Of a stretch of DNA of 64,000 nt, positions 3,912 through 63,121 are shown piece after piece. This DNA comes from Prevotella sp. (GTDB lineage: Bacteria; Bacteroidota; Bacteroidia; Bacteroidales; Bacteroidaceae), in assembly GCA_017645645.1 (NCBI GenBank), contig JAGCOB010000022.1, forward strand, positions 32,709 through 96,708, written 5' to 3'. The translations under genes and the position numbers were made by a program. The notes under the pieces are model-generated. The model saw only the letters and a list, made by a program, of their open reading frames with translations, searched no databases and was not told the origin of the DNA. Position 1 is the stretch's first letter, and every line of letters begins with the position of its first letter.

Positions 3912-4874
3912 CTTTTCCCATACTACTTCTATAGTCGCCTCGTTGGCTTCGATACCTTGAGCCACGATATCCATATCCTGAGGCAGCCATGTGGTCTTGC
4001 TGGCATAGGGCGAACAGATGACCAGCGAGGGCTTGCCCATGGCATAGACGATATGGCGCCCCCCACCCTCGTTGCCAAAATAGGCGGTGCAGTTAGCTGC
4101 CATAGCGGCGAGCTGACGAGGGCTCTTGGCCTCAATATTGAGAAAGAGAGGTGAAGGACAAGGAGCAAGAGGCAAGAGGTTAGAATATATACGTTGGGCG
4201 TTTTCTGCCTCGCGACCAGGAGCGAAATTAAAGATGAGTTGCAACTGGGGAAAGGTCGTGATTATACGACGCAGCACTTCCGTCATACGGTCTTCTGGCC
4301 ATGTTTTGTGTTCCAGCTTTGCTGTTACGCCTACCAGCATCACTGGACGACAGAAGTCGATGCCTTGTTGCTGCATATATTCCCTAAAATCAGCCTTCTC
4401 CTTTTCCGATATATAGAGCGAGAGATTTCTGTCTGTAATGGTTGGTTTCAGAGACGAGATTAACTTCAGGTTATGATCTATCATGCTCTCATCGTCTTCA
4501 CAACCCTTTATGAGGTAATTAAAAATGCCTCGGGTATAAGGCTTGCGAATACCGATGCGCCACTTGCTCCGAATCGAGAAAAGGGCAAAGAACATGGTGT
4601 TTAAGGTAGAACGCATATCGATAATAGCATCGTAACGTGTCTGGTGAACGATATGCCATACCTTTTTAATATAAATAAAGAAAGAATGGCGCTCGTCGTC
4701 ACTGAAAGTGATGATACGACTAATGGCAGGATGACCTTCGAATAAGGGTGCAATACGCTCGTTGAGCACAAAATGGATCTCCGCATCGGGGAAGCTCTTC
4801 TTCAGCGTGCTCAGCATAGAGGTGGCCAGGATGGCATCACCCATCTGTCGGAATCGTACAACGAGTATCTTCAT
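3879..4874 (-). CDS. glycosyltransferase family 9 (heptosyltransferase-like)
   Basis: A 331-residue member of the ADP-heptose:LPS heptosyltransferase family. It begins KILVVRFRQMGDAILATSML, the typical N-terminal strand-loop with RxxxMGDAI, and ends with FGNEGGGRHIVYAMGKPS, the donor-binding region that in WaaC/WaaF reads GxDSGxxH. It overlaps the upstream kinase-like gene by 4 bases, and a heptosyltransferase next to a core kinase fits LPS core assembly. A heptamer array (4147-4181) encodes residues 231-242, LLPLAPCPSPLF, which looks like an added loop between the two GT-B halves. The sugar could be heptose or another core sugar. Confidence 0.86.
   Translation of the reverse strand: MKILVVRFRQMGDAILATSMLSTLKKSFPDAEIHFVLNERIAPLFEGHPAISRIITFSDDERHSFFIYIKKVWHIVHQTRYDAIIDMRSTLNTMFFALFSIRSKWRIGIRKPYTRGIFNYLIKGCEDDESMIDHNLKLISSLKPTITDRNLSLYISEKEKADFREYMQQQGIDFCRPVMLVGVTAKLEHKTWPEDRMTEVLRRIITTFPQLQLIFNFAPGREAENAQRIYSNLLPLAPCPSPLFLNIEAKSPRQLAAMAANCTAYFGNEGGGRHIVYAMGKPSLVICSPYASKTTWLPQDMDIVAQGIEANEATIEVVWEKLLTFCKQLAV
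4147..4181. repeat. heptamer array in the GT9 gene
   Basis: Five 7-base units on the plus strand: AGAGGTG, AAGGACA, AGGAGCA, AGAGGCA, AGAGGTT. They lie inside the coding frame, in an expected interdomain loop. Confidence 0.6.
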
Positions 4875-5635
4875 AATTCCAGTTTGAATTCTATTTCACG
4901 TTTCTTCTGATAGTGCTGCCAGAAGTTGGCCCGAGCCTTCATGGTGATATCGACACAAGTGGCAGGATCGAAATGTCGCTCGCGGGCGTATGCCTCTACG
5001 AGAAGCTGGATAAAACGTTTTGGCCCCCACAGACGACAAAAGCTCTTGCATCCGTTCTCCATATCCACCACTCCAAAACGCATACGGTTGATATCAACAA
5101 TCGAGAAATGATACGTTCCGTCAACATCCTGATCCCAAAGAACATTCCCAGGAGAGAAGTCTAGATGGAGCACTTCCTGATCATGCATATAGGCCACATA
5201 TCTGGCCAAGGATTTGGCAATGGGTTCATAGACATCTGGGGTGGCATCGCCCAACTCATAGAGCAGATGACGATAAGGACATTGTAAACTGATGAAATAG
5301 CTTTGTTGCAAAAGTCCGATGACATTGCGATCCTCGATATAGGCGACGGCTTCAGGTGTCTCGATGCCCTTGGACAACAACCGTTCGGGATAGGTGAAGG
5401 CACGGATACCTTTGGGCTTTCGGATTCCCGTAGAATAGATGATGTTGTTCAGGAAGTTGGGCTTCTTGAAGCGTTTCACGTTAATCTGCGTACCATTGGG
5501 AGCCTCGAAACATTTGATGAGATTTCGTCGTCCACCATAGATATAAATGCCACCTTCATCCATGATGGCAGGGAGTTGTGCGATAAACTCGCGCAAATGC
5601 TCATATCGTGGATTTATGCTGATTTTTCTGCTCAT
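4871..5635 (-). CDS. LPS core kinase-like protein (Kdo/WaaP-type fold)
   Basis: A 254-residue kinase-fold protein of the lipopolysaccharide kinase (InaA/WaaP/KdkA) group, which phosphorylates Kdo or heptose of the LPS inner core at the cytoplasmic face. The catalytic loop is HLDFSPGN (H157, D159, N164) and the metal-binding DIN follows at 181-183, where protein kinases have DFG. The early segment NVKRFKKPN supplies a candidate ATP-binding lysine. It overlaps the acyltransferase gene upstream and the GT9 gene downstream by 4 bases each, forming a tight LPS-assembly operon with the MsbA-like exporter. Substrate (Kdo versus heptose) is not resolved. Confidence 0.83.
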   Translation of the reverse strand: MSRKISINPRYEHLREFIAQLPAIMDEGGIYIYGGRRNLIKCFEAPNGTQINVKRFKKPNFLNNIIYSTGIRKPKGIRAFTYPERLLSKGIETPEAVAYIEDRNVIGLLQQSYFISLQCPYRHLLYELGDATPDVYEPIAKSLARYVAYMHDQEVLHLDFSPGNVLWDQDVDGTYHFSIVDINRMRFGVVDMENGCKSFCRLWGPKRFIQLLVEAYARERHFDPATCVDITMKARANFWQHYQKKREIEFKLEL

Positions 5636-6601: not shown

Positions 6602-8428
6602 TTAACTTTGTAGCTCATGTAACTTCCTGTAATAACCACTAGCTGCTAGCAATTCCTCATGGGTACCACGCTCCACTATCTGTCCCTCATGCAACACACA
6701 TATCTCATCGGCATTTTTGATGGTAGAAAGACGGTGGGCAATAGCTACGGTCGTACGCGTCTTCATCAGTCGCTCTAAAGCATCCTGTACCAAGCGCTCG
6801 CTCTCTGTATCAAGGGCCGACGTTGCCTCATCGAGAATAAGGATTGGTGGGTTCTTCAAGATAGCACGGGCAATGGATACACGCTGACGCTGTCCACCCG
6901 AAAGTCGTCCGCCACGATCACCGATATTTGTATCGAAGCCATGCTCGCTCTGCATGATGAAGTCGTAGGCATTGGCAATCTTTGCCGCCTCCTCAATCTG
7001 CTCCTGTGTGGCATTTTCCACACCGAAGGAGATATTATTTCTAAAGGAGTCGTTGAAGAGGATGGCTTCTTGGTTAACATTACCAATCAACTGGCGCAGG
7101 TCGTGAATACCAAGATTCTTCACGTTGATGTCATCAATCAACACCTCACCCTCCTGTACATCGTAATAACGGGGAATGAGGTCGACCATCGTCGACTTAC
7201 CACTACCAGACTGTCCTACAATCGCTATCGTCTTGCCCTTCGGAATAATCAAGTTGATATGACGGAGGATCCATTTTTCTCCATAGCGGAAGGAAACATC
7301 ACGGAACTCAATCTGATGATCGAAAGAAGCAATTTGCTTGGGCTGTGCAGATTCCTTGATGGTATTTTCTGCCTTTAGAATCTTATCGATACGCTCCATG
7401 GAAGCCAATCCCTTCGGAATATTGTATCCTGCCTTAGAGAACTCTTTCAGCGGCTGGATAATGGAGTAAAGGATTACCATATAATAGATGAAGGTAGGAC
7501 CTGTGATTGTCTGGGTGTTCAGCACGAGGATACCACCAAACCACAACACAATGATAATCATCACTGTACCAAGGAACTCACTCATCGGATGGGCCATCGA
7601 CTGACGGATGTTTACTCGCATTATATCATTACGGTACGACGAGTTGATCTTGTCAAAGCGCTTGTTCATCTTCTCTTCAGCACAGAAAGCCTTAATGATA
7701 CGGAGTCCCCCCAGCGTCTCTTCCACCTGACTCATCGTGTCGCTCCAAAGAGCCTGAGCCTTGATACTCTTCTGCTTCAGCTTACGACCCACCAACCCCA
7801 TGAACCATCCGAAGATCGGCACGAAGATAATCGTAAACAGAGTGAGCTGCCAGGATACTAAGAGAAGAGTAGAGAAATAGACAATGATAAGGATAGGATT
7901 CTTGAACAGCATGTCCAGACTCGACATGATGCTCGACTCTACCTCTTGCACGTCGCCACTCATACGGGCAATAATATCGCCCTTACGCTCCTCAGAGAAA
8001 AAACCTAAAGGTAGGGCGTTGATTTTCTGATAGAGCTGGTTGCGGATATCGCGTACCACACCTGTACGGATGGGGATAATGGTAGCTGAAGATAAAAAAT
8101 AAGCACCAGTCTTCAGGGCTGTAGTCAGGGCAAGGAACAAGCCAATAAGCAACAACGTGGTCGTCTGTCCGTACTCAGCGATGAGCAGGGTCACATAATA
8201 GTTCAGATTGTTCATCAGTACATCCTGAATATTACTCCAGTCCCATTCCATCAGAGCCGTTGCCGCCTCTGCATTGCCCGTCTGAAAGAGAATCTGCAAG
8301 ATAGGTATCAGGGCGGCAAACGAGAAGATGTTCAATACCGCTGACAAAAAGTTGAAAATAACCGACAATACTAGGTATTTCTTATATGGCGGCACAAACC
8401 GCCTGAGTACGTTTAGAAATTCTTTCAT
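6602..8428 (-). CDS. MsbA-like ABC exporter (permease-ATPase)
   Basis: A 608-residue half-transporter with six N-terminal membrane helices (to about residue 320) and a C-terminal ATPase. Walker A reads GQSGSGKST, the signature LSGGQRQR and Walker B ILILDEATSALD, all intact, so it can work as a homodimer. Its place between miaB and lipid A acyltransferase, core kinase and heptosyltransferase genes supports lipid A-core flipping across the inner membrane. The family also includes drug and peptide exporters, so this role is inferred from context. The start overlaps the miaB stop by 4 bases. Confidence 0.88.
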   Translation of the reverse strand: MKEFLNVLRRFVPPYKKYLVLSVIFNFLSAVLNIFSFAALIPILQILFQTGNAEAATALMEWDWSNIQDVLMNNLNYYVTLLIAEYGQTTTLLLIGLFLALTTALKTGAYFLSSATIIPIRTGVVRDIRNQLYQKINALPLGFFSEERKGDIIARMSGDVQEVESSIMSSLDMLFKNPILIIVYFSTLLLVSWQLTLFTIIFVPIFGWFMGLVGRKLKQKSIKAQALWSDTMSQVEETLGGLRIIKAFCAEEKMNKRFDKINSSYRNDIMRVNIRQSMAHPMSEFLGTVMIIIVLWFGGILVLNTQTITGPTFIYYMVILYSIIQPLKEFSKAGYNIPKGLASMERIDKILKAENTIKESAQPKQIASFDHQIEFRDVSFRYGEKWILRHINLIIPKGKTIAIVGQSGSGKSTMVDLIPRYYDVQEGEVLIDDINVKNLGIHDLRQLIGNVNQEAILFNDSFRNNISFGVENATQEQIEEAAKIANAYDFIMQSEHGFDTNIGDRGGRLSGGQRQRVSIARAILKNPPILILDEATSALDTESERLVQDALERLMKTRTTVAIAHRLSTIKNADEICVLHEGQIVERGTHEELLAASGYYRKLHELQS

Positions 8429-9744
8429 ACTTCTTCGCCTAATAAAGTTGCACTTGTAGAACCGACAATACGAACACGCACGATTTCACCAATATGATGA
8501 CAGCCCTTATCAAACACCACCATCTTATTCTGCTCGGTACGACCACAGAGTTGGCTGCGACTGCGCTTCGAGAAGCCTTCCACCAAGACATCAAACTCCT
8601 TCTCTTCATCCTTCTTGTTCTGTCGGGCGGAAATCTCCGTCTGCAAGGCTATCAATTCGTTGAGTCTGCGAATCTTCTCCTCCTCAGGGACATTATCGGG
8701 CAGATGTTTTGAGGCATACGTGCCCGGGCGCTCCGAGTATTTAAACATAAAGGCAGAGTCATAGCCTACCTCACGCATCAGATCAAGTGACAACCGATGG
8801 TCTTCCTCCGTCTCTGAGTGATAGCCTACGAAGATATCCGTAGAGAGTCCGCTGTCAGGAATGATACGCCGGATAGCCGCCACGCGGTCAAGATACCATT
8901 CACGGGTATATTTGCGGTTCATCAGTTTCAGGATCCTGTCTGATCCACTCTGTACGGGCAGATGGATATGCTTGCAGACATTCGGCATCTCCGCGATGAC
9001 ATGCAGTGTTTCGTCACTCATATCCTTGGGATGGGAAGTCGTGAAACGGATGCGCATCTCAGGAGCCTCTTCAGCAACCCTTCTAAGTAATCTGGGAAAG
9101 TCTAGAGATTCTAGAGTATCTAGATCTTCTAGACGATAGCTGTTCACGTTCTGACCCAACAATGTTACCTCCTTGAAACCTCGATCCCTCAGGTCACGCA
9201 CTTCGCGCAGAATACTCTCTACATCTCTGGAACGTTCCCTACCACGGGTATAGGGTACAATACAATAATGACAGAAATTGTTACAGCCGCGCATAATGCT
9301 GACAAAACCGCCTATCCTTGCTCCATGCAAACGCTGGGGAACGATGTCCTTATAGGTCTCAGATGTCGACAACTCGATGTTCATGGCCTTATGTCCCGTC
9401 TCTGCTTGTGCTATCAGGTCGGGCAAAGAGAGATAAGCATCGGGGCCTGCCACCAAGTCGCAATGATGGTTTTCGAGCAAGTCGTCTTTGACCCGTTCTG
9501 CCATACATCCTAAGACACCGATAATGAGTGGACGCTTACGCTTAATAGCATCCAAAGCCTCCAAGCGGTGGTAGATCTTCTGTTCGGCATTGTCACGTAC
9601 CGAACAGGTATTCAGAAAGACAGCATCCGCCTCGTCAAGATTCTCCGTAGTCTCATAGCCTGCCATCTGCATCACGCTCGCCACGACTTCCGAGTCGGCG
9701 ACATTCATCTGACAGCCATACGTCTCTATATAGAGTTTTTTCAT
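8425..9744 (-). CDS. miaB: tRNA-2-methylthio-N6-dimethylallyladenosine synthase
   Basis: A 439-residue radical-SAM methylthiotransferase that adds the 2-methylthio group to i6A37 of tRNAs. The N-terminal domain carries the three auxiliary-cluster cysteines (GCQMNVADSE, NTCSVRDNAE, GVLGCMAER). The radical-SAM cluster motif CxxxCxxC is in GCNNFCHYCIVPYTRGRE, and a C-terminal TRAM domain contains LCGRTEQNKMVVF. It heads the LPS operon downstream, with a TAACTTTG promoter 20 bases upstream of the start. A 9-base tandem array (9101-9136) adds LEDLDTLES just after the conserved GQNVNSYR, where family members naturally vary in length. Confidence 0.97.
   Translation of the reverse strand: MKKLYIETYGCQMNVADSEVVASVMQMAGYETTENLDEADAVFLNTCSVRDNAEQKIYHRLEALDAIKRKRPLIIGVLGCMAERVKDDLLENHHCDLVAGPDAYLSLPDLIAQAETGHKAMNIELSTSETYKDIVPQRLHGARIGGFVSIMRGCNNFCHYCIVPYTRGRERSRDVESILREVRDLRDRGFKEVTLLGQNVNSYRLEDLDTLESLDFPRLLRRVAEEAPEMRIRFTTSHPKDMSDETLHVIAEMPNVCKHIHLPVQSGSDRILKLMNRKYTREWYLDRVAAIRRIIPDSGLSTDIFVGYHSETEEDHRLSLDLMREVGYDSAFMFKYSERPGTYASKHLPDNVPEEEKIRRLNELIALQTEISARQNKKDEEKEFDVLVEGFSKRSRSQLCGRTEQNKMVVFDKGCHHIGEIVRVRIVGSTSATLLGEEV
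9101..9136. repeat. CTAG nonamer array in miaB
   Basis: Four 9-base units on the plus strand, each with TCTAG: TCTAGAGAT, TCTAGAGTA, TCTAGATCT, TCTAGACGA. The frame is kept and residues 203-214 of MiaB are encoded. Confidence 0.75.
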
Positions 9745-9823: not shown

Positions 9824-10234
9824 ATGAAATTACTACGAGTTTTATTCGCCGCTTTGATGGTGATGATGGTATCAGGAGCAACTGCCCAAACGGTCTATAA
9901 CAGCAATGGAAGCAGTTGCGGAAAGATTGAGAGCAACGGTACTGTCCGTAACGGCAGCGGGAGCAGTATTGGAAAGATTGAGAGTGATGGTACCGTTCGC
10001 AATGGCAACGGTTCCTGCATCGGTAAGATTGACCGTGACGGAACAATCCGTAATAGCAGCGGTTCCAGCATCGGTAAGGTAGACAGCAACGGTACTGTAC
10101 GCAATGGCAACGGCTCCAGCATCGGTAAGGTGGAGAGTGACGGCACTGTCCGTAACGGTAACGGTTCCAGCATCGGTAAGGTATCTGGAGTACCCAAAGA
10201 GTGGGCTGCCGCCTATTTCTTCTTTTTCTTCTAA
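9824..10234 (+). CDS. secreted 17-residue-repeat protein, 5-fold beta-flower-like
   Basis: A 136-residue exported protein. A signal peptide (residues 1-22, ending GATAQ) is followed by five full copies of a 17-residue unit, NGxGSSIGKIESDGTVR (26-42, 43-59, 60-76, 77-93, 94-110), then a partial sixth. The tail is WAAAYFFFFF. The repeat pattern and poly-phenylalanine end match what I remember of the Bacteroidota family annotated as 5-fold beta-flower protein, whose cellular role is not known to me. DNA copies are very similar (51-base period), so copy number could change by recombination. It has its own promoter and is closed by a strong terminator, so it is monocistronic. Confidence 0.8.
   Translation: MKLLRVLFAALMVMMVSGATAQTVYNSNGSSCGKIESNGTVRNGSGSSIGKIESDGTVRNGNGSCIGKIDRDGTIRNSSGSSIGKVDSNGTVRNGNGSSIGKVESDGTVRNGNGSSIGKVSGVPKEWAAAYFFFFF
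9899..10153 (+). repeat. five 51-base coding repeats
   Basis: Five in-frame 51-base units encode the 17-residue repeats of the beta-flower-like protein. They share runs such as GGTTCCAGCATCGGTAAGGT at the DNA level, so they are recent or homogenised duplications. Confidence 0.85.
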
Positions 10235-10293: not shown

Positions 10294-10301
10294 TACCTTT
10301 G
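10294..10301 (+). promoter_or_regulatory. promoter of the DUF3737-patB-OPT operon
   Basis: TACCTTTG lies just after the preceding terminator and 24 bases before the DUF3737 start, in the extended context TTTTTCGTACCTTTG shared by several promoters here. Confidence 0.75.
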
Positions 10302-10324
10302 ACGGCACCTAACACAATAAGAAC

Positions 10325-11176
10325 ATGGAACTAATTAAAGACAAAGAATTTGGCGGAGAACGCCCTTTATTCACCATTCACGATACGCGACTGGAGAATA
10401 TTACCATCACAGATGGTGAAAGCGGTATCAAACAATGTCAGAACATCGAGGCAAGTCACTGCCGCTTTTATGGGAAGTACCCCTGGTGGCATGTTGACGG
10501 TGCCCTGATAGAAGACTGCTATTTCGCCTTGGATTCCCGTTCCGCCATCTGGTATACTAATGATCTGGTAATGCGTCGTTGTCGTATTGATGCTCCCAAG
10601 TTCTTCCGTGAAATGAGAAACGTCGAACTGGAGGACGTACAGATTTTAGATGCTGACGAGACGTTCTGGAAGGTCGATGGACTGAAACTGAAAAATGTCT
10701 GTCTGCATGGCGGGACGTATCCGTTCATGTTCTCGAAGAACATCTATATCGACGGACTGGAGAGTGATTCGAAATACGTATTCCAGTATTGTCAGAATGT
10801 GGAGGTGCATCATGCCAAGATCGTGACCAAAGACTCTTTCTGGGAATGCGAAAACGTGACAGTATATGATTCCGTCTTAGACGGTGAATATCTTGCATGG
10901 CACTCGAAGAACGTACGACTGGTGAACTGTCATCTGACTGGTGAGCAACTGCTTTGCTACACTGACAACCTCATTTTGGAAAACTGTACAATCGACAAGG
11001 CCTGTGACCGTATGTTTGAGTATTCCACTGTGAAGGCGGATATCCGCGGACATATTGAAAACATCAAGAATCCTACCAGTGGACATATTGTTGCGGACAG
11101 CATCGGTTCGATTACCATTGACGAAAACGTACGACAACCGAATGACTGTATGATAGAGGTGAGAGGTATGAAGTAA
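10325..11176 (+). CDS. DUF3737 family beta-helix protein
   Basis: A 283-residue cytoplasmic protein with no signal peptide, of the DUF3737 family. It is built of short irregular repeats of the parallel beta-helix type (NITITDGESGIKQCQNIEASHCRF, with similar NxxLENCxI and NVxVYDS patterns throughout), the fold of pectate lyases, without recognisable lyase catalytic residues. Five bases separate it from a PatB-type lyase gene, a pairing I recall from other genomes. Function is unknown. Its last codons (VRGMK, stop) are made from a heptamer array that also supplies the next gene's start. Confidence 0.88.
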   Translation: MELIKDKEFGGERPLFTIHDTRLENITITDGESGIKQCQNIEASHCRFYGKYPWWHVDGALIEDCYFALDSRSAIWYTNDLVMRRCRIDAPKFFREMRNVELEDVQILDADETFWKVDGLKLKNVCLHGGTYPFMFSKNIYIDGLESDSKYVFQYCQNVEVHHAKIVTKDSFWECENVTVYDSVLDGEYLAWHSKNVRLVNCHLTGEQLLCYTDNLILENCTIDKACDRMFEYSTVKADIRGHIENIKNPTSGHIVADSIGSITIDENVRQPNDCMIEVRGMK

Positions 11177-18248: not shown

Positions 18249-20205
18249 ATTCTTCCTCCTCAGGACGGTCTTCTTCGATAACAAGGTTATCAATAATAAA
18301 ATTCTGACGCTCCATGGTGTTCTTACCCATATAGTAGTCGAGCAGTTTCTGTACCTGATCATTCTTTTGAAGTGTCACCTGCTCCAGACGAATGTCGGGA
18401 CCGATAAAGCCGGCAAACTCCTCTGGTGATATCTCACCAAGACCTTTGAACCTGGTAATCTCAGGATCGGGTCCTAATTCCTGTATCGCCTTCATACGCT
18501 CCTCCTCACTATAGCAATAGCGCGTGATGAAATCACTTTTGGCTTTTGGCTGTTTGCTATTAGCTATTTTCTCGTCTTCCTGTGCCAACACCTTCTTGTT
18601 CTTGACTTTCGTCCTGCGGTTACGAACACGGAACAAAGGTGTTTGTAACACATATACATGTCCTTTTTTCACGAGTTCCGGGAAGAACTGCAAAAAGAAA
18701 GTGATAATCAGCAGACGGATATGCATACCGTCATCATCAGCATCAGTAGCTACTATCACCTTATTATATCTAAGAGTGTCCAGCCCTTCCTCGATATCCA
18801 AAGCAGCCTGCAGCAAATTAAACTCCTCATTCTCATATACCACCTTCTTCGTCAGTCCATAGCAGTTCAAGGGTTTTCCTCGCAGTGAGAATACAGCCTG
18901 TGTATTCACGTCACGACTCTTGGTGATGCTTCCACTGGCAGAGTCACCCTCCGTAATAAAGATACTTGACTCCTCCTTACGGTCATTCTTTGCATCAGAA
19001 AAATGGATACGACAATCGCGCAGTTTACGATTATGCAGGTTAGCCTTTTTTGCACGTTCACGGGCGAGCTTTGTCACACCAGCCATTGCCTTACGCTCAC
19101 GCTCACTTTCCTTAATCTTCTGCTCCAACACCTCTACGACATCCGCATGAATATGCAAGTAGTTGTCCACCTCTTGTTTGACAAAGTCACCGATATATTT
19201 ATTGATGCTGACACCATCGGGCGACATCGTCGTAGAGCCGAGTTTGATCTTCGTCTGACTCTCAAAGATAGGTTCTTCCACATTGATGGAGATAGCAGCA
19301 ACGATTCCTGTACGGATATCCCCATATTCATACTTGTTGAAAAAGTCCTTGATAGTACGGGCTATATGCTCCTTAAAGGCACTCTGGTGTGTTCCGCCCT
19401 GAGTGGTATGCTGACCGTTGACAAAAGAGTAGTATTCCTCACCATACTGGTTGGCATGAGTAAAGGCTATCTCGATGTCCTCGCCCTGAAGATGCACGAT
19501 AGGATAGAGGGCATCATTCGTCATACGGTCTTTCAGCAGATCCTCCAGTCCATGACGGGAGAGGATACGACGACCATTATACATAATCGTCAGGCCGATA
19601 TTCAAATAGGTATAGTTACGGAGCATGTTCTCCACTATCTCGTCATGGAACTGGTAGTTCTGGAACTTCGTATTGTCTGGTTCGAAATAGATATAGGTAC
19701 CGTTCTCGTCCTGCGAAGGCTCTGTTACATCACTAATAAGTTCACCACACTCAAAGACCGCCTTGCGCACCTTCCCCTCACGATAACTATGTACTTCGAA
19801 ACGACTACTCAGCGCATTGACAGCCTTCACACCGACTCCATTCAGTCCGATGGATTTCTTAAATGCCTTAGAGTCAAACTTACCACTAGTGTTCAGGATA
19901 CTTACCGATTCGATGAGTTTTCCCTGTGGGATGCCTCGCCCATAGTCACGGACAGAAATACGAAGGTTGTCTTCCACCATTACCTCAATACGGTCGCCTG
20001 CCTTCATCTTGAACTCGTCTATCGAGTTGTCGAACACTTCCTTCAGCAACACATAGATACCATCCTCTGCGGAGGAACCGTCACCCAGTCTACCGATATA
20101 CATACCAGGACGCAGCCGGATATGCTGTAGTCCCGTGAGGGTTTGTATATTACCTTCGTCGTAGTTGACGACATTCTCTTCCATGATATTCTTATCTCCT
20201 GCCAT
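18241..20205 (-). CDS. parE: DNA topoisomerase IV subunit B
   Basis: A 654-residue type IIA topoisomerase ATPase subunit that decatenates replicated chromosomes with ParC (not in this window). The GHKL ATPase appears first ([35 protein letters not shown]), then the transducer, then TOPRIM with [17 protein letters not shown] and the metal-binding DADDDG. Length and TOPRIM context fit ParE better than GyrB, though the two are close. A heptamer array (18536-18570) encodes about residues 545-556 ([11 protein letters not shown]) in a TOPRIM-proximal linker. It follows the acetyltransferase gene by 8 bases. Confidence 0.88.
18536..18570. repeat. heptamer array in parE
   Basis: Five 7-base units on the plus strand: CTTTTGG, CTTTTGG, CTGTTTG, CTATTAG, CTATTTT. 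The unit is a circular shift of GGCTTTT found at 47777 and 62628. Confidence 0.7.
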
Positions 20206-21430: not shown

Positions 21431-22687
21431 TTAACCTATTTTACGGCAAACAAACAATTTATGGGAATCGTCTGGCAGCGTCGTCGCAAAGATATACACG
21501 TCTCCACCATCCTTCAGTTTGAGTTTTTTACGCAACGCCTCTACACTCATAGGGAAGTTACGTATAGCGATATTCGCCCTTTCAATTCCTTGTAACGCTG
21601 TTTTGAGTCCTTGTTTGTTCATCGAGGTCACAGCCTCAACGCGGAACTGTCTACCAGGGAAATCCCTGACTTCATGGTCGGAAATGAAGAGATGGGAGTT
21701 CATCGACAACTGTCTGACACCAAACCTTTCCTCCACTTGGGCGAAACATCCTGCCTTCATGATACTGGCATTCGGTTCAAAGAGTAAAACTTTCTCTTTT
21801 GTTCCACCCCATGGAACACTTTGTTCCACCCCATGGAACATTTCGTTCCACCCCATGGAACACTTTGTTCCACCCCATGGAACAACCCGGAACTTCTGAT
21901 CATTGTTCACACAAGTCAATGAAATCTGCTCCGTAGACCCCTTCCTAATGACCAAAACAAGTTCTTTGCATTCGTTATCGACACTGACTATATGGACTTC
22001 ATGAACATGATTTCCTAAATCCCTCACCGCCTTCTGCCAGTCGAGCATGGGAGAGAGTTTCAAGAGGATGGTATCTGCCTTTTCCAATAACAAAGGCATC
22101 AGTTCGATGACATTGGGCGTACAGTCCTTGATATCATACGTACGACAGCCGTGTTCATCCCTTCGTGCAGGATCGAGGAAAACCACATCGGCATGATCCA
22201 TCTTCTTCAAATATTCCTCTGCCTCGCCATTCACAACCTCTGCCTCCAACCCCAACACCTGGAAATTATGCCGTGCCATCTCACAAAGTCCTGAATTGCG
22301 CTCAACATAGATCCTCTTCATAAACGAGCAGGACATAAAAGAGAAGTCAACACCAAAGCCGCCTGTAAGGTCAACGAAACTCTGATTGCCGCCATTTATT
22401 TCGTTATGACGGTATAACGTTATATCGTTATCACGAAAGGCGGCAAGTTGTGCCTTATACCTCGCCGTCTGTTCCGAGGAACATTGTTCCATATTTAAGT
22501 GAGGTGGATAGATGATACCATCGACTGCTGCCCATGACGGCAACTTCTTGCGTGCCGTCTGCCATCCCGCAATCTGTTGGAGAGCCATTGGCATATCTAC
22601 TCCCTCGACTTTGCCTCTAAGGGCAAGCCGATGCACATCCTCATTGCGATGTTGCTCAAAAAACTGCCATGTCAAATCATTCATCAT
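21431..22687 (-). CDS. THUMP-like class I SAM methyltransferase
   Basis: A 418-residue protein with a Rossmann methyltransferase core and a C-terminal THUMP-like domain, a Bacteroidota family (PG_1098-like) presumed to modify RNA. The SAM-binding glycine motif reads VDLTGGFGVDFSFM and motif IV reads VVFLDPARRD. The open frame runs 12 codons further upstream, but the promoter at 22693-22700 lies inside that extension. I therefore start at the MM pair (22687 or 22684), which leaves almost no leader. Residues 85-95 come from an octamer array and 268-295 from a 22-base palindromic array, both without disturbing the frame overall. Confidence 0.82.
   Translation of the reverse strand: MMNDLTWQFFEQHRNEDVHRLALRGKVEGVDMPMALQQIAGWQTARKKLPSWAAVDGIIYPPHLNMEQCSSEQTARYKAQLAAFRDNDITLYRHNEINGGNQSFVDLTGGFGVDFSFMSCSFMKRIYVERNSGLCEMARHNFQVLGLEAEVVNGEAEEYLKKMDHADVVFLDPARRDEHGCRTYDIKDCTPNVIELMPLLLEKADTILLKLSPMLDWQKAVRDLGNHVHEVHIVSVDNECKELVLVIRKGSTEQISLTCVNNDQKFRVVPWGGTKCSMGWNEMFHGVEQSVPWGGTKEKVLLFEPNASIMKAGCFAQVEERFGVRQLSMNSHLFISDHEVRDFPGRQFRVEAVTSMNKQGLKTALQGIERANIAIRNFPMSVEALRKKLKLKDGGDVYIFATTLPDDSHKLFVCRKIG
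21801..21883. repeat. 22-base palindromic tandem array in a methyltransferase gene
   Basis: Four identical 17-base units GTTCCACCCCATGGAAC (21801, 21823, 21845, 21867), separated by 5-base spacers ACTTT, ATTTC, ACTTT. Each unit is a hairpin with 6-bp arms GTTCCA/TGGAAC. Because 22 is not a multiple of 3, successive copies are read in different frames (VPWGGTK, SMGWNEM, FHGVEQS, then VPWGGTK again). Confidence 0.95.
22402..22433. repeat. octamer array in the same methyltransferase gene
   Basis: Four 8-base units: CGTTATGA, CGGTATAA, CGTTATAT, CGTTATCA. Three extra copies equal 24 bases, which preserves the frame. Confidence 0.65.
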
Positions 22688-22688
22688 C

Positions 22689-22776
22689 GTTGCAAAAGTA
22701 CGAATAAGTAAGCGAGTTTCCAAGAAAAAGTATTTATTTATTTTGTTATTTACATACTTATTCGTACTTTTGTAAC
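22689..22776. promoter_or_regulatory. divergent promoters inside a 22-bp inverted repeat
   Basis: Arms 22689-22710 and 22755-22776 are inverted repeats matching at 21 of 22 positions. Each contains TTATTCGTACTTTTG, so each arm is a promoter: TACTTTTG on the minus strand (22700 to 22693) for the methyltransferase and on the plus strand (22765-22772) for the ABC-dusB operon. The 44 bases between are AT-rich. Confidence 0.8.
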
Positions 22777-33255: not shown

Positions 33256-34625
33256 AGAAAGGGGATGGGTGAGACAAGATGCATCTCTTCGCCAGTGACA
33301 GGATGACGAAACCATATCTGTTCGGCATGCAGATACAACCGATCGGCTTTGGTACCATAGAGTTCATCACCCTTGATGGGTCTGCCGAGTCCTTCGGGAT
33401 GAGCGCAGTGGATGCGCAACTGGTGAGTACGTCCTGTCTGTGGATAGAGTGCAACGGTATTCTCGTTCAGAAACTCATAGTCCGTAATAGCACGCTTACC
33501 GTGTTCATAATCCACGATCTGGCGCGGACGATTCATCGGGTCAGGACGGAGAGGAAGGGAGATGCGTCCTTTCTTCTCAAGAACATCTAGACGGTCTAGT
33601 ATCTCTAGACTCTCTAGTACAGCGACATACCGTTTCTTTACTTGATGTTTCACAAATTGCTCCTGTAAGGAGTGATAGACCTCCAACGACTTTGCCACGA
33701 TAAGCAACCCTGACGTCCACATATCCAACCGATGGGCAATGATGGCATCAGGATAACGCTGTCGCATCACAGTTTCTACACTATATTCCTCTACTCGACC
33801 GGGTGTACTCAGCATTCCCGACGGTTTGTCAACCACCAAAAGATTATCGTCCTCATAAATCGTCTTGACTTCTAAATGGGGAAAGCCCTGCATTTCTGGG
33901 TTATCATCTACATCGAGTCCTTCCATCATCCAAGTGAGAATGGGCTTGCATTTCCCTCGACAAGCAGGATAGAAGTTACCATGCTGGCGCAGTTCTTCCT
34001 TCGTAGACTGTCCCCACCAGAACTCTGCCATACAGACAGGTTTCAGATGTTGTTGATACGCATACTGCAAGAGTTTAGGAGCGCAACAATCACCGGTACC
34101 GCCTGGGGGTAATGGGAACTTACGACGCAGTTTCTCCTTATTATAATATGACTGCCAGATATCCACCAAATCTTTCGATTCTCCTCTTGCATTCAGTAAC
34201 TGATACTGGTGAAACAACCATAACTGTAAGTCTTGGGACATCCCCCTAGTACTACTAGCATTACTAGTACTACTAGTTTCTCTAGATATTCTAGAGATCT
34301 CACGTTCCATGGTCTTGAAATGGCCGTCTGGCTGTTGGGCATCATAGACTGGCGGTACGAAATACTCCCAGTCATTCCTTCCTGCCAACAAACCGCTATA
34401 AGCGGCAAGAAAACCAAGTCCCCCATTAACCCCATCACACTCCACCACAAGTACGCCGAACATCTTCCCACGGTCGGCATCCTCCTTGATCTCCACATGA
34501 GCGGCAATATATGTCTGCACCTCCTTAGCCGCCATTTCACATAGCGGATGCGGCTCGTAGCAGAACGGATAGGTAAACCGCTCAGGAGCCTGGACATCAG
34601 TATTTAGCGGATGCAGAAATCCCAT
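33252..34625 (-). CDS. RluA-family pseudouridine synthase with long N-terminal extension
   Basis: A 457-residue protein. The C-terminal half is an RluA-type pseudouridine synthase (catalytic aspartate in AHRLDMWTSGLL; also DKPSGMLSTPG and LYPQTGRTHQLRIH). The first 200 residues or so form an extension typical of Bacteroidota members, with cysteine-containing CCAPKLL and RGKCKPI. The frame runs a further 99 codons upstream, but the promoter TACCTTTG (34640 to 34633) lies inside that stretch. The ATG ending at 34625 is therefore used, seven bases from the promoter box. Two CTAG nonamer arrays encode residues 109-126 and 335-346. rRNA or tRNA target is not assigned. Confidence 0.88.
   Translation of the reverse strand: MGFLHPLNTDVQAPERFTYPFCYEPHPLCEMAAKEVQTYIAAHVEIKEDADRGKMFGVLVVECDGVNGGLGFLAAYSGLLAGRNDWEYFVPPVYDAQQPDGHFKTMEREISRISRETSSTSNASSTRGMSQDLQLWLFHQYQLLNARGESKDLVDIWQSYYNKEKLRRKFPLPPGGTGDCCAPKLLQYAYQQHLKPVCMAEFWWGQSTKEELRQHGNFYPACRGKCKPILTWMMEGLDVDDNPEMQGFPHLEVKTIYEDDNLLVVDKPSGMLSTPGRVEEYSVETVMRQRYPDAIIAHRLDMWTSGLLIVAKSLEVYHSLQEQFVKHQVKKRYVAVLESLEILDRLDVLEKKGRISLPLRPDPMNRPRQIVDYEHGKRAITDYEFLNENTVALYPQTGRTHQLRIHCAHPEGLGRPIKGDELYGTKADRLYLHAEQIWFRHPVTGEEMHLVSPIPFL
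33586..33621. repeat. CTAG nonamer array in rluA (C-terminal domain)
   Basis: Four units TCTAGACGG, TCTAGTATC, TCTAGACTC, TCTAGTACA, in frame, encoding LESLEILDRLDV. Confidence 0.75.
34245..34298. repeat. CTAG nonamer array in rluA (N-terminal extension)
   Basis: Six 9-base units: CCTAGTACT, ACTAGCATT, ACTAGTACT, ACTAGTTTC, TCTAGATAT, TCTAGAGAT, in frame, giving a serine/threonine-rich linker (ISRISRETSSTSNASSTR). Confidence 0.8.
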
Positions 34626-34632
34626 CTGTCTG

Positions 34633-34705: not shown

Positions 34706-34745
34706 CAGGCGAAAATAATATTATTACTAAAATAAACAAGAATAT

Positions 34746-38878: not shown

Positions 38879-40776
38879 TGTCCCAACAGAACTCGCCCAT
38901 ACAAGCCCTCCAACAACAACGGCTGCTGCTCGAGCTGGAGTACCAGACGGAGAAGGAGGCGTTCCGCAAACAAACGGAGGAGACGGGTATTGAGCGAAAG
39001 GTCAAAAGGGGTGATGCATGGTATCCGCTGAAAGTGGGCAAGAGTTATTATAACTCACTCAACCAACTGGCGATAGAGGTTTTCCGCACTGCCGAACAGG
39101 AGATAGAGCATACCTTCGAGTTTGGTAAAACGGTGATGTTCTTTCATCTGGACGACAACAAAGTTAAATACCTGTCGTTTTCTTCCACCGTCAGTTATGT
39201 GGATGGCGACCGTATGGTGTGTATCCTGCCTAACGAAGGCTATTCCGTCACTTTACAGCATACGGAGAACCTTGGCGTACAACTCTCGTTTGACGAGACG
39301 AGTTACCGTTTGATGATGGAAGCCCTCGACCGTGCTGTCAAGGGGAAGGGACGCTTGGGCGAGTTGCGCGACCTCTTCTATTCCCGTCGACCTGTGGAGA
39401 CCTTTGTCTTCCAACCCATGCATTTCCCTTATCTGAATCCGACACAAGAGAATGCTGTCAACCAGGTATTGAAGACCAAGGATGTGGCTATCGTACATGG
39501 TCCTCCTGGCACTGGTAAGACAACGACGCTCGTAGAGGCCATTCGTGAGACGTTGATGCGAGAGAGTCAGGTGCTGGTCTGTGCACAGAGTAATATGGCT
39601 GTCGACTGGATTTCAGAGAAACTCGTCGACAGGGGGATTAACGTATTACGTATCGGCAATCCTACCCGTGTCAACGATAAGATGCTGTCGTTCACTTATG
39701 AGCGACGCTTCGAGGCACATCCTGACTATCCCCACCTGTGGGCAATCCGTAAGGCGATTCGGGAACTACGCAGTCATCGTAAACGAGGCGACGAGAAATT
39801 CCATCAGAAGTTAGAGAGTCTGAAGAGTCGTGCCACCGAGTTGGAAATCCGTATCAACAACGAATTGTTCGGTGAGGCTCGTGTCATTGCCTGTACATTG
39901 GTGGGGGCAGCCAATCGCCTGTTGGACGGACAGAAGTTCAGCACGCTGTTTATCGACGAGGCGGCACAGGCATTGGAGGCGGCATGTTGGATTCCCATGC
40001 GACGTGTCAGTCGTGTCATCCTCGCTGGCGACCATTGTCAATTGCCTCCTACCGTTAAAAGTATCGCAGCGCTGAAGGCTGGTCTCGGCAAAACACTCAT
40101 GGAGCGACTGGTAGAGACACATCCAGAGGCAGTGACGCTGCTGAAGATACAATACCGCATGAATGACGATATCATGCGTTTCTCGTCCAACTATTTCTAT
40201 GACGGACAGATAGAGAGTGCCCCCACCGTAAAGTATCGCGGCATCCTTGACCTCGATGTGGCAATGGAGTGGATTAGCCCCTCCGAGAACTCAGAGAGTT
40301 CAGAGTACTCGGAGAACTCCTTCAAAGAACAATTCATCGGCGAATCCTTCGGCCGCATCAACAAAGACGAGGCAGAGCTGACGCTGAACACCCTCCAGCA
40401 GTATTTTGAACGCATTGGCAAGCAACGCTTGTTAGATGAGCGCATTGATGTGGGAATCATCTCTCCCTATCGTGCCCAAGTGCAATATCTCCGTCAACTC
40501 TTGATGAAGCGCGAGTTCTTTAAACCCTTCCGTCGTCAGATCAGTGTGAATACCGTTGACGGCTTCCAGGGACAGGAACGTGACATCATCGTCCTCTCCA
40601 TGGTCCGTTCCAATGATGACGGACAGATCGGTTTCCTTCGTGACCTTCGTCGCATGAATGTAGCCATCACCAGAGCCCGTATGAAAGTCATCATCCTCGG
40701 CAATGCCCCCACACTCACCCGCCATCCCTTCTATCGCCAACTCTGGAAATATGTGCAGTCGCTGAAAGGGCTGTGA
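38878..40776 (+). CDS. UPF1-like superfamily 1 helicase
   Basis: A 632-residue SF1 helicase of the UPF1/DNA2/IGHMBP2 branch. Motifs in order: Walker A GPPGTGKTT (about 205-213), motif II FIDEAAQALEAACW, GDHCQLPPTV, motif IV region KIQYRMND, motif V VDGFQGQERDIIVLSMVRSN and motif VI RRMNVAITRARMKVI. It probably unwinds DNA or RNA in the cytoplasm. Its ATG overlaps the preceding stop by one base (TAATG). A nonamer array encodes about residues 469-480 (ENSESSEYSENS), a low-complexity loop between motifs. Confidence 0.9.
   Translation: MSQQNSPIQALQQQRLLLELEYQTEKEAFRKQTEETGIERKVKRGDAWYPLKVGKSYYNSLNQLAIEVFRTAEQEIEHTFEFGKTVMFFHLDDNKVKYLSFSSTVSYVDGDRMVCILPNEGYSVTLQHTENLGVQLSFDETSYRLMMEALDRAVKGKGRLGELRDLFYSRRPVETFVFQPMHFPYLNPTQENAVNQVLKTKDVAIVHGPPGTGKTTTLVEAIRETLMRESQVLVCAQSNMAVDWISEKLVDRGINVLRIGNPTRVNDKMLSFTYERRFEAHPDYPHLWAIRKAIRELRSHRKRGDEKFHQKLESLKSRATELEIRINNELFGEARVIACTLVGAANRLLDGQKFSTLFIDEAAQALEAACWIPMRRVSRVILAGDHCQLPPTVKSIAALKAGLGKTLMERLVETHPEAVTLLKIQYRMNDDIMRFSSNYFYDGQIESAPTVKYRGILDLDVAMEWISPSENSESSEYSENSFKEQFIGESFGRINKDEAELTLNTLQQYFERIGKQRLLDERIDVGIISPYRAQVQYLRQLLMKREFFKPFRRQISVNTVDGFQGQERDIIVLSMVRSNDDGQIGFLRDLRRMNVAITRARMKVIILGNAPTLTRHPFYRQLWKYVQSLKGL
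40285..40320 (+). repeat. nonamer array in the helicase
   Basis: Four 9-base units: GAGAACTCA, GAGAGTTCA, GAGTACTCG, GAGAACTCC, in frame, encoding a serine/glutamate-rich loop. Confidence 0.75.
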
Positions 40777-47772: not shown

Positions 47773-48278
47773 TGAGGGCTGTTAGCTTTTGGCTATTAGC
47801 TTTTGGCTTTTGGCTGACAAGTGTGGATGTCTTTAGTCAGGAAAGGGGAGGCTTCTCCTTGGAGCAGAAGAATGACACACTGTCAGTGCTGACGCTGAAG
47901 ACAGACTCCACCTGTGACCGATGGGAACTGCCCTACCCTGTCTACCAGTTCTGTACGGGTGATGTCGATGGTGACGGGAGTATTGATGCGATGGTGGGTG
48001 TCATCAAGAGCACCCGCTATTTCAAGGAGAAAGGACGACGCCTGTTTATCTTCAAGAACTACCACGGACTGGTGCGTCCATTGTGGATGGGATCGAAGTT
48101 AGGCGGTATCCTGGAGGACTTCCGGTTCACAGACGGGAAGATACAGAGCCTGGAGCGCACGACAGACGGGAAATACGTGGTGGCGGAATACCGCTGGGCA
48201 CATTTCGGCATGGGCTTTGAGCGTTTCCTACTGAAGAATGTGACAAGGGAAGAAGCAATAAAAACATTTAATAACTAA
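47772..48278 (+). CDS. small exported protein with VCBS/FG-GAP-like motif
   Basis: A 168-residue protein. Its signal peptide core (VSFWLLAFGFWLTS) is made by a heptamer array (47777-47818). The mature part contains GDVDGDGSIDAMVGV, a calcium-binding-like turn resembling an FG-GAP/VCBS repeat. Family and role are not recognised with confidence. The start overlaps the preceding stop by one base. Confidence 0.7.
   Translation: MRAVSFWLLAFGFWLTSVDVFSQERGGFSLEQKNDTLSVLTLKTDSTCDRWELPYPVYQFCTGDVDGDGSIDAMVGVIKSTRYFKEKGRRLFIFKNYHGLVRPLWMGSKLGGILEDFRFTDGKIQSLERTTDGKYVVAEYRWAHFGMGFERFLLKNVTREEAIKTFNN
47777..47818 (+). repeat. heptamer array forming a signal peptide core
   Basis: Six 7-base units: GGCTGTT, AGCTTTT, GGCTATT, AGCTTTT, GGCTTTT, GGCTGAC, encoding residues 3-16. 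The unit GGCTTTT also occurs in parE and ribF. Confidence 0.8.
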
Positions 48279-60679: not shown

Positions 60680-60713
60680 TTCTATTATGTAGGGGCAAAA
60701 AATCCCGAACAAA

Positions 60714-61358: not shown

Positions 61359-61373
61359 ATAGGATATTGTCCC

Positions 61374-62177
61374 CTACTCCGCCCTACGCATTCCGAGATA
61401 GAGCTGATAGATGGCAGGCAGACAGATCAGCAGGGAGAAGAAGACGGCAAGATAGACATGAAGTTCGGAGCCTTTGAAAAGGTCGATGAGTTTCATGTCT
61501 TTGTCTGGATAGGCATGATAGATAATATATGCTGCTGAGTTGTTGGCCCAGTGGTATGCCATACCAGGCAGGATAGAGCCTGTACGCCAATACATCCAAC
61601 CTAACAACCACCCTGCCAGGAAGGCAAAAGGCATCTGTACAGGGTTCATGTGAATCAAGGCAAAGAGTACTGCCGATACCGATATGGCACCATAGACACG
61701 ATTATTCGCTGTTGATTGTTTGTCAATGCCATTGTCCCATCCTAATAAGGTACGCAGGATAGCACCTCGGAAGACGACCTCCTCAGCCAAGGGAGCCAAT
61801 ATGCCGATGACCAGATACCCCCAATAGTCGCCCAGCAACATCTCCTGCTGGTCTTCTATCCAGTTAGGCAGTTCCGGCATATTCTCCTGCAACCATGAGA
61901 TAGGAATGATTAAACCTAAGGCTGCGATGATTGACCATATCAATACCAACCATTGCTTAGTGGCCATCCAACGGGGAGATACCTCTGCCCATCGTGACAA
62001 AAGGAAGATGGTAAGAATCAAAGCACTGCATACTGCCATCGACACAACCATCTCTGCAACAGTCAAGTCCGTATTATCTGTCACTTGTTGCCATATTGCA
62101 TGCACTATTAAACCTGCCATCGCCTGCATGGCAACGAATATCAAGGCATATAAAAAAGCATTTATGATTTTCTTCAT
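61374..62177 (-). CDS. CPBP family intramembrane metalloprotease
   Basis: A 267-residue polytopic membrane protein of the CPBP/ABI family (CAAX-protease and bacteriocin-processing type). The motifs are EEVVFRGAIL (first Glu pair and arginine), FALIHMN (histidine) and MAYHWANNSAAY (second histidine). Seven or eight hydrophobic segments are visible. Substrate is unknown; relatives process prenylated or bacteriocin-like proteins or act in stress. Start and ribF stop overlap by 4 bases within an AGTTTAA-type repeat. Confidence 0.9.
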   Translation of the reverse strand: MKKIINAFLYALIFVAMQAMAGLIVHAIWQQVTDNTDLTVAEMVVSMAVCSALILTIFLLSRWAEVSPRWMATKQWLVLIWSIIAALGLIIPISWLQENMPELPNWIEDQQEMLLGDYWGYLVIGILAPLAEEVVFRGAILRTLLGWDNGIDKQSTANNRVYGAISVSAVLFALIHMNPVQMPFAFLAGWLLGWMYWRTGSILPGMAYHWANNSAAYIIYHAYPDKDMKLIDLFKGSELHVYLAVFFSLLICLPAIYQLYLGMRRAE

Positions 62178-63121
62178 AACTTTAAACTATGAACTGTATT
62201 TGCGTCTTCTTTAAGTTGTTCCTTCAGCTCCTCCTCGTTGTCGAATTGACGTTCCTCGCGCAGCCGTTCAATGAAGCTCACCGTTATCTCCTGTCCATAG
62301 AGGTCACCCTCATAGTCGAGGATATGTACCTCTAAGGTCTGCGAATGCTCACCAAAAGTAGGACGAGTGCCGATGTTCATCATACCAACAAACATCTTCC
62401 TTCTTCCTTCTTCCATCAGACATCTCACTGCATAGACACCAGAGGCTGGAATGAGTTTACGAGGGTCGTTAAGTTGCAGGTTTGCCGTTGGGAAACCTAA
62501 TGTAGTACCGATGTGCTCACCCCTGACGACTTTGCCTGTCAGACGATATGGATAACTCAGACATTCCGCTGCCTCACTTACATTACCTTCTGCCAACAAT
62601 TGTCGGATAAGGGAGGAACTGATTTCTGGCTTTTGGCTTTTGGCTTTTAGCTTTTGGCTAACAGCAGGCAGCTGCTCTACTTCCATCCCTATCTCTTTCC
62701 CATATCGAACATAGTCTTCGAAAGTATCATGACGATTATGACCGAAGCGGTTGTCATAGCCTGTCATCAGTACCTTCACGCCCAACTGGTTAGCCATCAG
62801 TTGCATGAAATCGCGTGCCGTAAGATTTGCCATCTCCTTCGTGAAGGGAAGCACCACGCAATAGTCGATACCCGTCTCTTCCAACAGCCTCATCCGCTCG
62901 TCGAAGGTCGTCAACAACTGGGGCTTCCAGTCTGTCTGTACCACCTCCCGTGGATGCTGGTCGAAGGTAATCACCATCGATGCCAGTTGGTGTGCCTTGG
63001 CATAGTCACAGATATGGCTGAGCACAAAGCGATGCCCCTTGTGTACTCCGTCGAACATGCCGATGGTGGCGACACAAGGTATTGCCTGTTGTTCATTTCC
63101 TTTGAGTATCAACGTCTCCAT
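62174..63121 (-). CDS. ribF: bifunctional riboflavin kinase / FAD synthetase
   Basis: A 315-residue enzyme making FMN and FAD from riboflavin. The N-terminal adenylyltransferase has GMFDGVHKGHRFVLSHI (HxGH-like nucleotidyl motif); the C-terminal flavokinase has GFPTANLQLN and MNIGTRPTFGEHSQTLEVHILD. The frame extends 13 codons upstream, but the promoter TACCTTTG (63137 to 63130) lies within that extension, so I start at the ATG ending at 63121. Heptamer arrays encode residues 153-164 (SQKLKAKSQKPE, between domains) and 236-242. Confidence 0.92.
   Translation of the reverse strand: METLILKGNEQQAIPCVATIGMFDGVHKGHRFVLSHICDYAKAHQLASMVITFDQHPREVVQTDWKPQLLTTFDERMRLLEETGIDYCVVLPFTKEMANLTARDFMQLMANQLGVKVLMTGYDNRFGHNRHDTFEDYVRYGKEIGMEVEQLPAVSQKLKAKSQKPEISSSLIRQLLAEGNVSEAAECLSYPYRLTGKVVRGEHIGTTLGFPTANLQLNDPRKLIPASGVYAVRCLMEEGRRKMFVGMMNIGTRPTFGEHSQTLEVHILDYEGDLYGQEITVSFIERLREERQFDNEEELKEQLKEDANTVHSLKL
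62176..62197. repeat. heptamer run at the ribF/CPBP junction
   Basis: On the minus strand, CAGTTCA, TAGTTTA, AAGTTAT: three units of the AGTTTAA kind covering the ribF C-terminus (HSLKL) and the ATG of the CPBP gene. Confidence 0.45.
62394..62414. repeat. heptamer array in ribF (flavokinase domain)
   Basis: Three units ATCTTCC, TTCTTCC, TTCTTCC, encoding EEGRRKM. Confidence 0.55.
62628..62662. repeat. heptamer array in ribF (inter-domain linker)
   Basis: Five units GGCTTTT, GGCTTTT, GGCTTTT, AGCTTTT, GGCTAAC, encoding SQKLKAKSQKPE on the minus strand. Confidence 0.8.

Follow-up and report, generated by a model that had tools for sequence, protein, structure and literature searches.

Heptamer arrays known as STRR occur in cyanobacteria, where they are built from few units and are mostly intergenic. 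Direct repeats of a single unit, TAACTGA, most of them immediately before a start codon, are found in Beggiatoaceae, cyanobacteria and five Bacteroidetes (PMC4679880), and the GGGAATC and GGGGATT heptamers of Xanthomonas and Nostoc are G-rich, are thought to form quadruplexes and are over-represented between genes (PMC4692102). Archaeal Borg repeats are near perfect, with a unit unique to each locus and, in genes, a unit length divisible by three (PMC9879509); Rickettsia palindromic elements and PARCEL repeats, one family each, are inserted in frame at assorted, typically unstructured places in proteins (PMC2996958). The PINSR of Prevotella intermedia is a single intergenic family of 188 bp (PMC4755523). 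A 2025 survey reports a high short-tandem-repeat density, coding sequences (CDS) included, for the phylum Bacteroidota, the words Prevotella and heptamer being absent from its main text in the part available (PMC12699852), and the available part of a P. intermedia paper mentions a tandem-repeat track in a figure only (PMC4349605). These summaries follow excerpts of the cited papers. Here we analyse the short tandem arrays of a 64,000-nucleotide stretch of a Prevotella sp. genome (GenBank assembly GCA_017645645.1, contig JAGCOB010000022.1, positions 32,709 to 96,708; hereafter the window). These arrays are in large excess, draw on a restricted and shared vocabulary of units, are used in both orientations and in coding as well as non-coding DNA, and differ between relatives at orthologous positions. 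Among the matches listed in a search of PMC open-access titles and abstract openings, there was no description of such arrays in Prevotella.

The window genome (G000; L- and G-numbers are our handles for sequences and genomes) comprises 2.085 Mb in 29 contigs and is 64% complete. A search with one window protein returned rumen Prevotella and Prevotellaceae as the closest named records, led by RUG12503 (about 91-93% DNA identity) and followed by RUG14585 and Prevotella sp. tf2-5; the window seems to belong to a metagenome-assembled genome of a rumen Prevotella. The sample of this genome consisted of the window together with 20 further stretches, 20 kb each (464 kb in all). Its genes were called by simple scoring of open reading frames (ORFs), which gave a coding fraction of 0.915 and missed some window genes. 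Order-4 Markov shuffles yielded 78.4 arrays with a score of at least 30 and a period of no more than 24, where the sample itself has 276 non-redundant ones. At a Tandem Repeats Finder (TRF) score of at least 40 there were 48 arrays of period 7 against 0 in shuffles, 12 of period 8 against 0.2 and 13 of period 9 against 0.2, and a second finder gave 106 period-7 arrays per Mb against 0. The excess also survived the codon-preserving control that an earlier note on this DNA had proposed: 358 CDS (355 called plus three window genes added; 428 kb) contained 103 array matches, against 9.2 when synonymous codons were permuted within each gene and the protein kept, and 3.2 when codon order was permuted (periods 5-30; a single array may score at two periods). 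For period 7 alone the three counts were 38, 0.8 and 0.0. Samples of 100 kb from each of four further Prevotella genomes contained 0, 0, 0 and 1 period-7 arrays.

The units of these arrays are shared far beyond chance. The 57 period-7 arrays located by the second finder use 29 units and form 58 identical-unit pairs, against 1.6 for random genomic heptamers; the arrays in CDS (n=36) form 31, against 0.7 for heptamers able to be stop-free, and permuting the unit letters gave 3.2 against 34 observed (51 arrays). Pairs common to the window genome and the named loci numbered 103 against 19.4, in part by descent because those loci are orthologous to the window, and pairs common to the window genome and G028 numbered 34 against 2.8. 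The earlier note was therefore right that units recur at distant loci, and right that local slippage is insufficient, since slippage of arbitrary local sequence leaves shared units unexplained.

What recurs is a DNA word rather than a peptide, because one unit is used in both orientations and CTAG arrays are read in different frames. In one orientation AAAAGCC/AACAGCC encodes hydrophilic stretches (PTANSQQ, KAKSQKP, KSQKP) in seven CDS at relative positions 0.26-0.85; in the other it encodes WLLAVGCWLL or AVSFWLLAFGFWL in three CDS at relative positions 0.01-0.02, N-termini that look signal-peptide-like and lie where a signal peptide would be. CTAG arrays are read as Leu-Glu/Asp-X in a MiaB-like gene and at site A of an RluA-family gene, and as Ser-Arg-X and Thr-Ser-X, in another frame, at site B of the latter. 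All eight array Leu codons of the MiaB-like gene and RluA site A are CTA, a codon that makes up 317 of the 7439 Leu codons in long ORFs.

Alignment with orthologues, also proposed in the earlier note, found arrays present, absent or swapped between relatives. In 81 pairwise comparisons (with any pair whose starting point was neither the window nor L026 compared both ways) the unit was kept in 24, one base apart in 6, replaced by another unit or period in 29 and without an array in 22, the figure of 29 being an upper one because some CTAG arrays differ by their spacers only. Even the period can be exchanged at the same place, from heptamer to 9-base at 13265 and from 8-base to heptamer at 22402, and the residues at array positions differ or are missing within the genus. 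The RluA family was surveyed in 80 sequences: the window plus all but one of 80 named loci, the exception giving no ORF there. Site A carries an array in 20 of the 80, with 14 units (12 if CTAG variants are pooled), periods 7 and 9 and segments of 33-114 bp; site B carries one in 30, with 18 units (14 if pooled), periods 7, 8 and 9 and segments of 36-165 bp. Frames are open at both sites, which are flanked by invariant columns; the site A array of the window itself did not reach the threshold of this survey. At site B of L116, an 8-base array (CGGGGGTA) in the reading frame is accompanied by a second, inverted one at the same locus (10298-10338, 10373-10403).

The incompleteness and the 29 contigs of the window genome raise the question of an assembly artefact of metagenome bins, an explanation that is scarcely credible: Prevotella sp. 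tf2-5, whose record is not titled a metagenome-assembled genome, has nine arrays in 21 kb, assemblies of 2 or 3 contigs (G111, G010) contain arrays, and orthologous arrays agree between separately named records.

Within genes the arrays respect the reading frame, as the earlier note had held: all 15 tested places in window genes lie in frames without internal stops. The length difference to an empty orthologous place is a multiple of three in 8 of 17 cases, coding and non-coding pooled. Orthologue comparison and the counts in CDS and between genes likewise bear out that arrays sit at gene junctions and in those parts of conserved proteins that vary. Could protein-level selection for low-complexity linkers have made the repeats? 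The invariant columns on either side of the RluA array sites and the use of several TCN codons in a Ser-Glu-X array are compatible with this, and it could hold for some 9-base Ser-Glu-X arrays. Yet the same units also occur outside genes, and for the heptamers the idea is contradicted both by the use of one unit in two orientations with opposite chemistry and by synonymous-codon permutation, which removes nearly all arrays. We consider this origin very improbable.

The description of the arrays as protein-linker insertions fits 39 of the 57 period-7 arrays, which lie in CDS, and does not extend to the 12 that are intergenic or the 6 at gene edges. Nine of the 57 are flanked by inverted CAAAnnTA and TAnnTTTG boxes, which match the Bacteroidetes promoter box. 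In G028 only 6 of 31 period-7 arrays are in CDS; most are intergenic and several form inverted pairs. One box-flanked array of 33 bp consists of AGTTTAG in the window genome, AAACTAT in G084 and TTTTCAA in G085, its length staying within one base. Promoter-like sequences are also dispersed as pairs (CAAAGGTAC ... GTACCTTTG) at window 34631-34743, L026:11622-11690 and L026:19343-19430, with many matches in related genomes; the window copy resembles divergent promoters with TAnnTTTG boxes, and these pairs are possibly mobile bidirectional promoters. The CTAG arrays of G010 are often flanked by GAGAGTT and AACTCTC arrays, and its composite elements (L267, L268), complete or partial, run from a GAGAGTT array through GCCCGTC, a CTAG-N5 array and GACGGGC to an inverted AACTCTC array.

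Another possibility is that the cores are DNA or RNA binding sites under selection and the arrays multi-site platforms, for instance for a nucleoid or promoter factor, with spacers drifting freely. Although G000 avoids CTAG (observed/expected 0.24), it stacks the motif 9, 18, 27 and 36 bases apart (28, 20, 13 and 7 pairs), the four TCTAG cores at 33586 are unchanged between G000 and L039 while their spacers have changed, and both the nine arrays between promoter-like boxes and the box-flanked array that keeps its length with three units in three species could be read in the same way. However, one core at 34245 is altered in L039 (TCTAG to TCTGG), and at the promoter example a fourth species, G086, has a spacer 21 bases shorter and no array. 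Many unrelated units coexist within one genome, arrays are lost or exchanged between related species, and those in window genes sit in housekeeping genes without a common theme. We regard selected binding sites as a less likely explanation of the arrays. GGCC (0.26) and GATC (0.43) are depleted alongside CTAG in the 464-kb sample, and GATC stands at 0.16 in G028.

Loads of individual units vary widely within the genus. Among 120 Prevotella genomes, 65, counting that of the window, have triple CTAG-N5 matches, up to 213 in one genome, and 55 have none (reversed control 0 to 5). GAGAGTT arrays occur in 58 of the 120, the reversed-pattern control being void here because GAGAGTT reads the same backwards. 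The two loads co-occur, with 44 genomes having both and 41 neither (odds ratio 6.1, phylogeny uncorrected). Order-wide, CTAG matches were found in 18 of 295 genomes including the window's; G333, G367 and G311, from other families of the order, have 120, 103 and 38 CTAG-N5 matches, and the remaining non-own genomes 0-6. Several candidate drivers were considered. Avoidance of CTAG is no simple reason for zero loads: G024 has an observed/expected ratio of 0.89 and no CTAG-N5 matches, and G000 a ratio of 0.24 and 45. Reverse transcriptase genes, present in 57 of the 120 genomes, track neither CTAG (p 0.28) nor GAGAGTT loads (p 0.59), and an RVT_1 match is lacking in 16 genomes whose CTAG count is at least 20. 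For Y1 transposase genes, which in REP/REPIN systems with a RAYT transposase would be followed by the repeat load and which are present in 72 of the 120 genomes, there is no association with CTAG loads (p 0.14) and a weak one with GAGAGTT (odds ratio 2.8, p 0.009). Neither gene was found in the 64%-complete window genome. Slippage under mismatch-repair deficiency through loss of MutL does not explain the CTAG loads, as MutL_C is present in 108 of the 120 genomes, in all 56 near-complete ones and in G000.

The arrays might also be tiny mobile cassettes of some 30 bp, for which a trans-acting enzyme would copy or template the array at a new place. The shared vocabulary, the all-or-none loads per unit in the 120 genomes, the correlation of two unrelated units and the replacement of an array by one whose period differs all speak for this. 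So do array boundaries in some families: a start phase is preferred in those of GTTGAGCG (8 of 10) and AGAGGTG (6 of 9, some of them orthologues), and 7 of 14 GGCTNTT arrays end at GGCT. GGCTNTT starts, however, are spread over all seven phases, and we rejected array phase as the mark of a discrete cassette. Variant-unit order offers no help either: common order between loci showed no excess over chance in families of 4-18 arrays from two genomes, and in the window genome variant pairs shared between loci were fewer than with units pooled across loci (3 against 8.2, 1 against 6.7 and 1 against 3.5). Similarity between loci ends within about three bases of the array ends, and the reverse transcriptase and Y1 transposase genes neither track CTAG loads nor were found in the window genome as assembled. 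We regard mobile cassettes, too, as a less likely explanation. The earlier note had concluded that a copying or templated-insertion mechanism would be needed; variant order, the abrupt array ends and the empty places discussed below do not support that conclusion. We are similarly doubtful of a broader proposal, that Prevotella possess a sequence-specific trans-acting activity that writes, overwrites and erases word arrays of some 30 bp at tolerant gene and promoter sites, with lineage-specific word sets.

Our tentative preference is for growth, homogenisation and loss in place: the very short tandem arrays would form one population spread over the genome in some, not all, Prevotella. A tolerant position, one where the protein or spacer accepts any sequence of roughly the same length, would hold a short tract resembling a preferred unit. 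This tract would grow by slippage-type duplication; the grown array would be homogenised in place, then shrink or disappear, and might be succeeded by another array, selection merely filtering frame, length and encoded peptide. The most likely place to look for the cause of the genome-specific bias to certain units is a sequence-specific property of replication or repair. One sign of homogenisation in place is the GTTCAAT array of the window, which reads TGTCAAT throughout at equal length in a relative; another is the low number of variant pairs that loci of the window genome have in common, given above. In addition, empty orthologous places matched the unit of their own array at 5.80 of 7 positions against 5.26 (p 0.003), with 4 exact matches against 1.0 expected; this permutation test used 15 of the 17 cases of a tie-counting test, two that share one empty place with a third having been dropped. 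A local seed or remnant at empty places is thus weakly supported.

Several observations weigh against growth and loss in place. Two of the 15 seed-test cases share one empty place, and in the tie-counting measure (17 cases) other units matched as well or better at 0.49, which is no seed signal. Moreover, the empty places are perhaps leftovers of lost arrays, so that the seed test gives no direction. Array length is clustered, 44 of the 57 period-7 arrays measuring 24-35 bp with 33 the commonest. The middle three spacer bases of CTAG arrays carry only 0.17-0.31 bits each in the window genome and 0.07-0.13 in the named loci, and unit duplication alone does not yield spacers of such low information; the named loci have 63 distinct five-base spacers among 95, and G010, which is less random, 33 among 65. 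Finally, plain slippage gives no reason for the shared vocabulary and leaves the all-or-none loads of one unit among congeners unexplained.

The array classes comprise 7-base units (including GGCTNTT, GTTCAAT, GTTGAGA, AGTTTAG, ATTGATA and AAATGAG), 8-base units (including CGTTATNN and TTTCGNNA), 9-base units of which many consist of a core plus spacer (TCTAGANNN, ACTAGTNNN, CTATAGNNN, TCNGANNNN), and 22-base units, many of them palindromes plus spacer; the heptamers are not palindromic. The earlier note had listed arrays with units of 7 to 22 bases together; the 22-base array belongs to a different, palindromic class. G028 likewise has 22-base palindromic arrays of the AACAAAGTTAATAACATTGTTC type, some with inverted ATATCAAACGGG-like ends (L151:4573-4685, L152:12626-12716, L157:7219-7331), and a second such family centred on AGTAAAATAGGCTATTTTACT.

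Of about twenty arrays claimed for the window, 21 places were listed. These were read in register and their self-match at the named period was compared with six order-4 Markov shuffles of the window. Eleven had no chance equal (0.00 per 64 kb: 18536, 25465, 28958, 47777, 62394, 62628, 22402, 34245, 57403, 36068 and 21801), three were rare by chance (9101, 0.33 places per 64 kb; 33235, 0.50; 33586, 0.83) and two marginal (4147, 1.17; 40285, 3.0). The other five proved indistinguishable from chance (11158 and 13265, 13.5 each; 32910, 45; 62176, 49; 30441, 426), and for these the claim fails on scoring. At a TRF score of at least 30 the window gave 38 rows, with 15 of the 21 places among them. 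Comparison with relatives backs some weak places (40285, 32910, 13265 and 11158, the last a stretch that is shorter in L191 and L189); 30441 and 62176 found support neither there nor in the chance scoring. The arrays and their counterparts are listed in the table. Separately, about five copies of a 51-base unit lie at window 9919-10180, overlapping a small ORF (9824-10234).

Table. Arrays of the window, with what stands at the same place in relatives
Position	Strand	Array	Context	Same place in relatives
9101..9136	-	TCTAGANNN x4, read as RLEDLDTLESLD (Leu-Glu/Asp-X)	within MiaB-like radical-SAM gene 8425-9744	array with different spacers in L190, some two units in L191, none in L189
13265..13306	+	degenerate AGCCAAC heptamers, weak alone	OPT transporter gene 12338-14230	9-base TCNGANNNN arrays instead in L190, L191 and L189 (judged by eye)
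18536..18568	-	GGCTNTT heptamers	near C-terminus of GyrB/ParE-type gene 18241-20205	no array in L196, L189 and L069
21798..21884	-	22-base palindromic unit (GTTCCACCCCATGGAAC + spacer) x4, frame open	PG_1098/THUMP-like gene 21431-22723	spanned by no alignment
22402..22435	-	CGTTATNN 8-base array	PG_1098/THUMP-like gene 21431-22723	AGCCAAT heptamers in L196, nothing in L192
25467..25499	+	GTTCAAT x4.7	ABC transporter gene 24574-26403	TGTCAAT in L193 (equal length; 93% identical there), ACATCTC in L041/L198 (tf2-5), none in L058
28947..28987	+	AAAGTTG/AAAGTTT array	dprA 28108-29187	array of GGTAAGA type in both L053 and L049; none in L044, L047 and L058
32910..32927	.	two ACTAGTNNN-type units	intergenic; indistinguishable from chance when scored alone	six units in L040, CCTAGG version in L042, lacking in L044 and L117
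33235..33254	.	AGTTTAG array	between two genes	other units
33586..33622	-	TCTAGNNNN x4, read as VLESLEILDRLDVLE (Leu-Glu/Asp-X)	RluA-family pseudouridine synthase gene, site A	
34245..34300	-	ACTAGTNNN/TCTAGANNN x6, read as ISRISRETSSTSNASST, frame differs from site A	RluA-family gene, site B	
40281..40320	+	TCNGANNNN array, read as SENSESSEYSENS	AAA_11/AAA_12 helicase gene 38878-40776	similar array in L039 and L041, shorter in L040 and L051, heptamers in L049, none in L047, L044, L046 and L058
47778..47815	+	GGCTNTT heptamers, which encode a signal-peptide-like N-terminus (MRAVSFWLLAFGFWL) in a 168-aa protein	gene 47772-48278	other sequence in L039
57385..57438	.	AACTATAGG-type 9-base array	intergenic, with a shikimate kinase gene on one side and an arginine decarboxylase gene on the other	absent in L058
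62395..62414	-	TTCTTCC heptamers	ribF-like gene 62174-63160	
62627..62659	-	GGCTTTT x4.7, read as SQKLKAKSQKP	ribF-like gene 62174-63160	

If arrays do arise and turn over as we suggest, a group of rumen bacteria would be using a common set of DNA words to rewrite short parts of housekeeping proteins, promoter spacers and signal-peptide-like N-termini, fast enough for the changes to show between related species. They would then offer a natural system for the birth of short bacterial tandem arrays, the choice of words and the tolerance of proteins for insertions that arise at the DNA level, and linker residues in array-bearing proteins would need care before any functional reading.

Set against the described systems, as far as the excerpts cited above characterise them, the Prevotella arrays share features with several. 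They resemble Borg repeats as fast-evolving tandem repeats in and between genes, but their units are common to several loci and 7-base units occur inside genes. As with GGGAATC and GGGGATT, the heptamers have conserved and variable positions and most arrays have about four units, whereas the Prevotella units are mixed and mostly not G-rich. In-frame placement at assorted protein sites recalls the Rickettsia palindromic elements and PARCEL; here, by contrast, the units are many, unrelated and tandem, and the heptamers are not palindromic. PINSR, also an amplified repeat confined to a Prevotella lineage, is otherwise a different thing. As for phase-variation contingency loci, whose copy number changes from strain to strain and thereby switches a gene, the Prevotella units are degenerate and their host genes largely housekeeping. 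STRR and TAACTGA are likewise dispersed 7-base arrays, patchy across genomes and without an evident mechanism. Unlike TAACTGA, the Prevotella arrays use dozens of units and several periods, are largely intragenic in the window genome and are exchanged at the same site from species to species. With STRR they share tandem heptamers dispersed above chance (48 against 0 at a score of at least 40 in 464 kb); they depart from STRR in having 29 units among 57 arrays, 39 of which lie in CDS, although in G028, with 6 of 31 in CDS, the arrays are mostly intergenic as STRR are.

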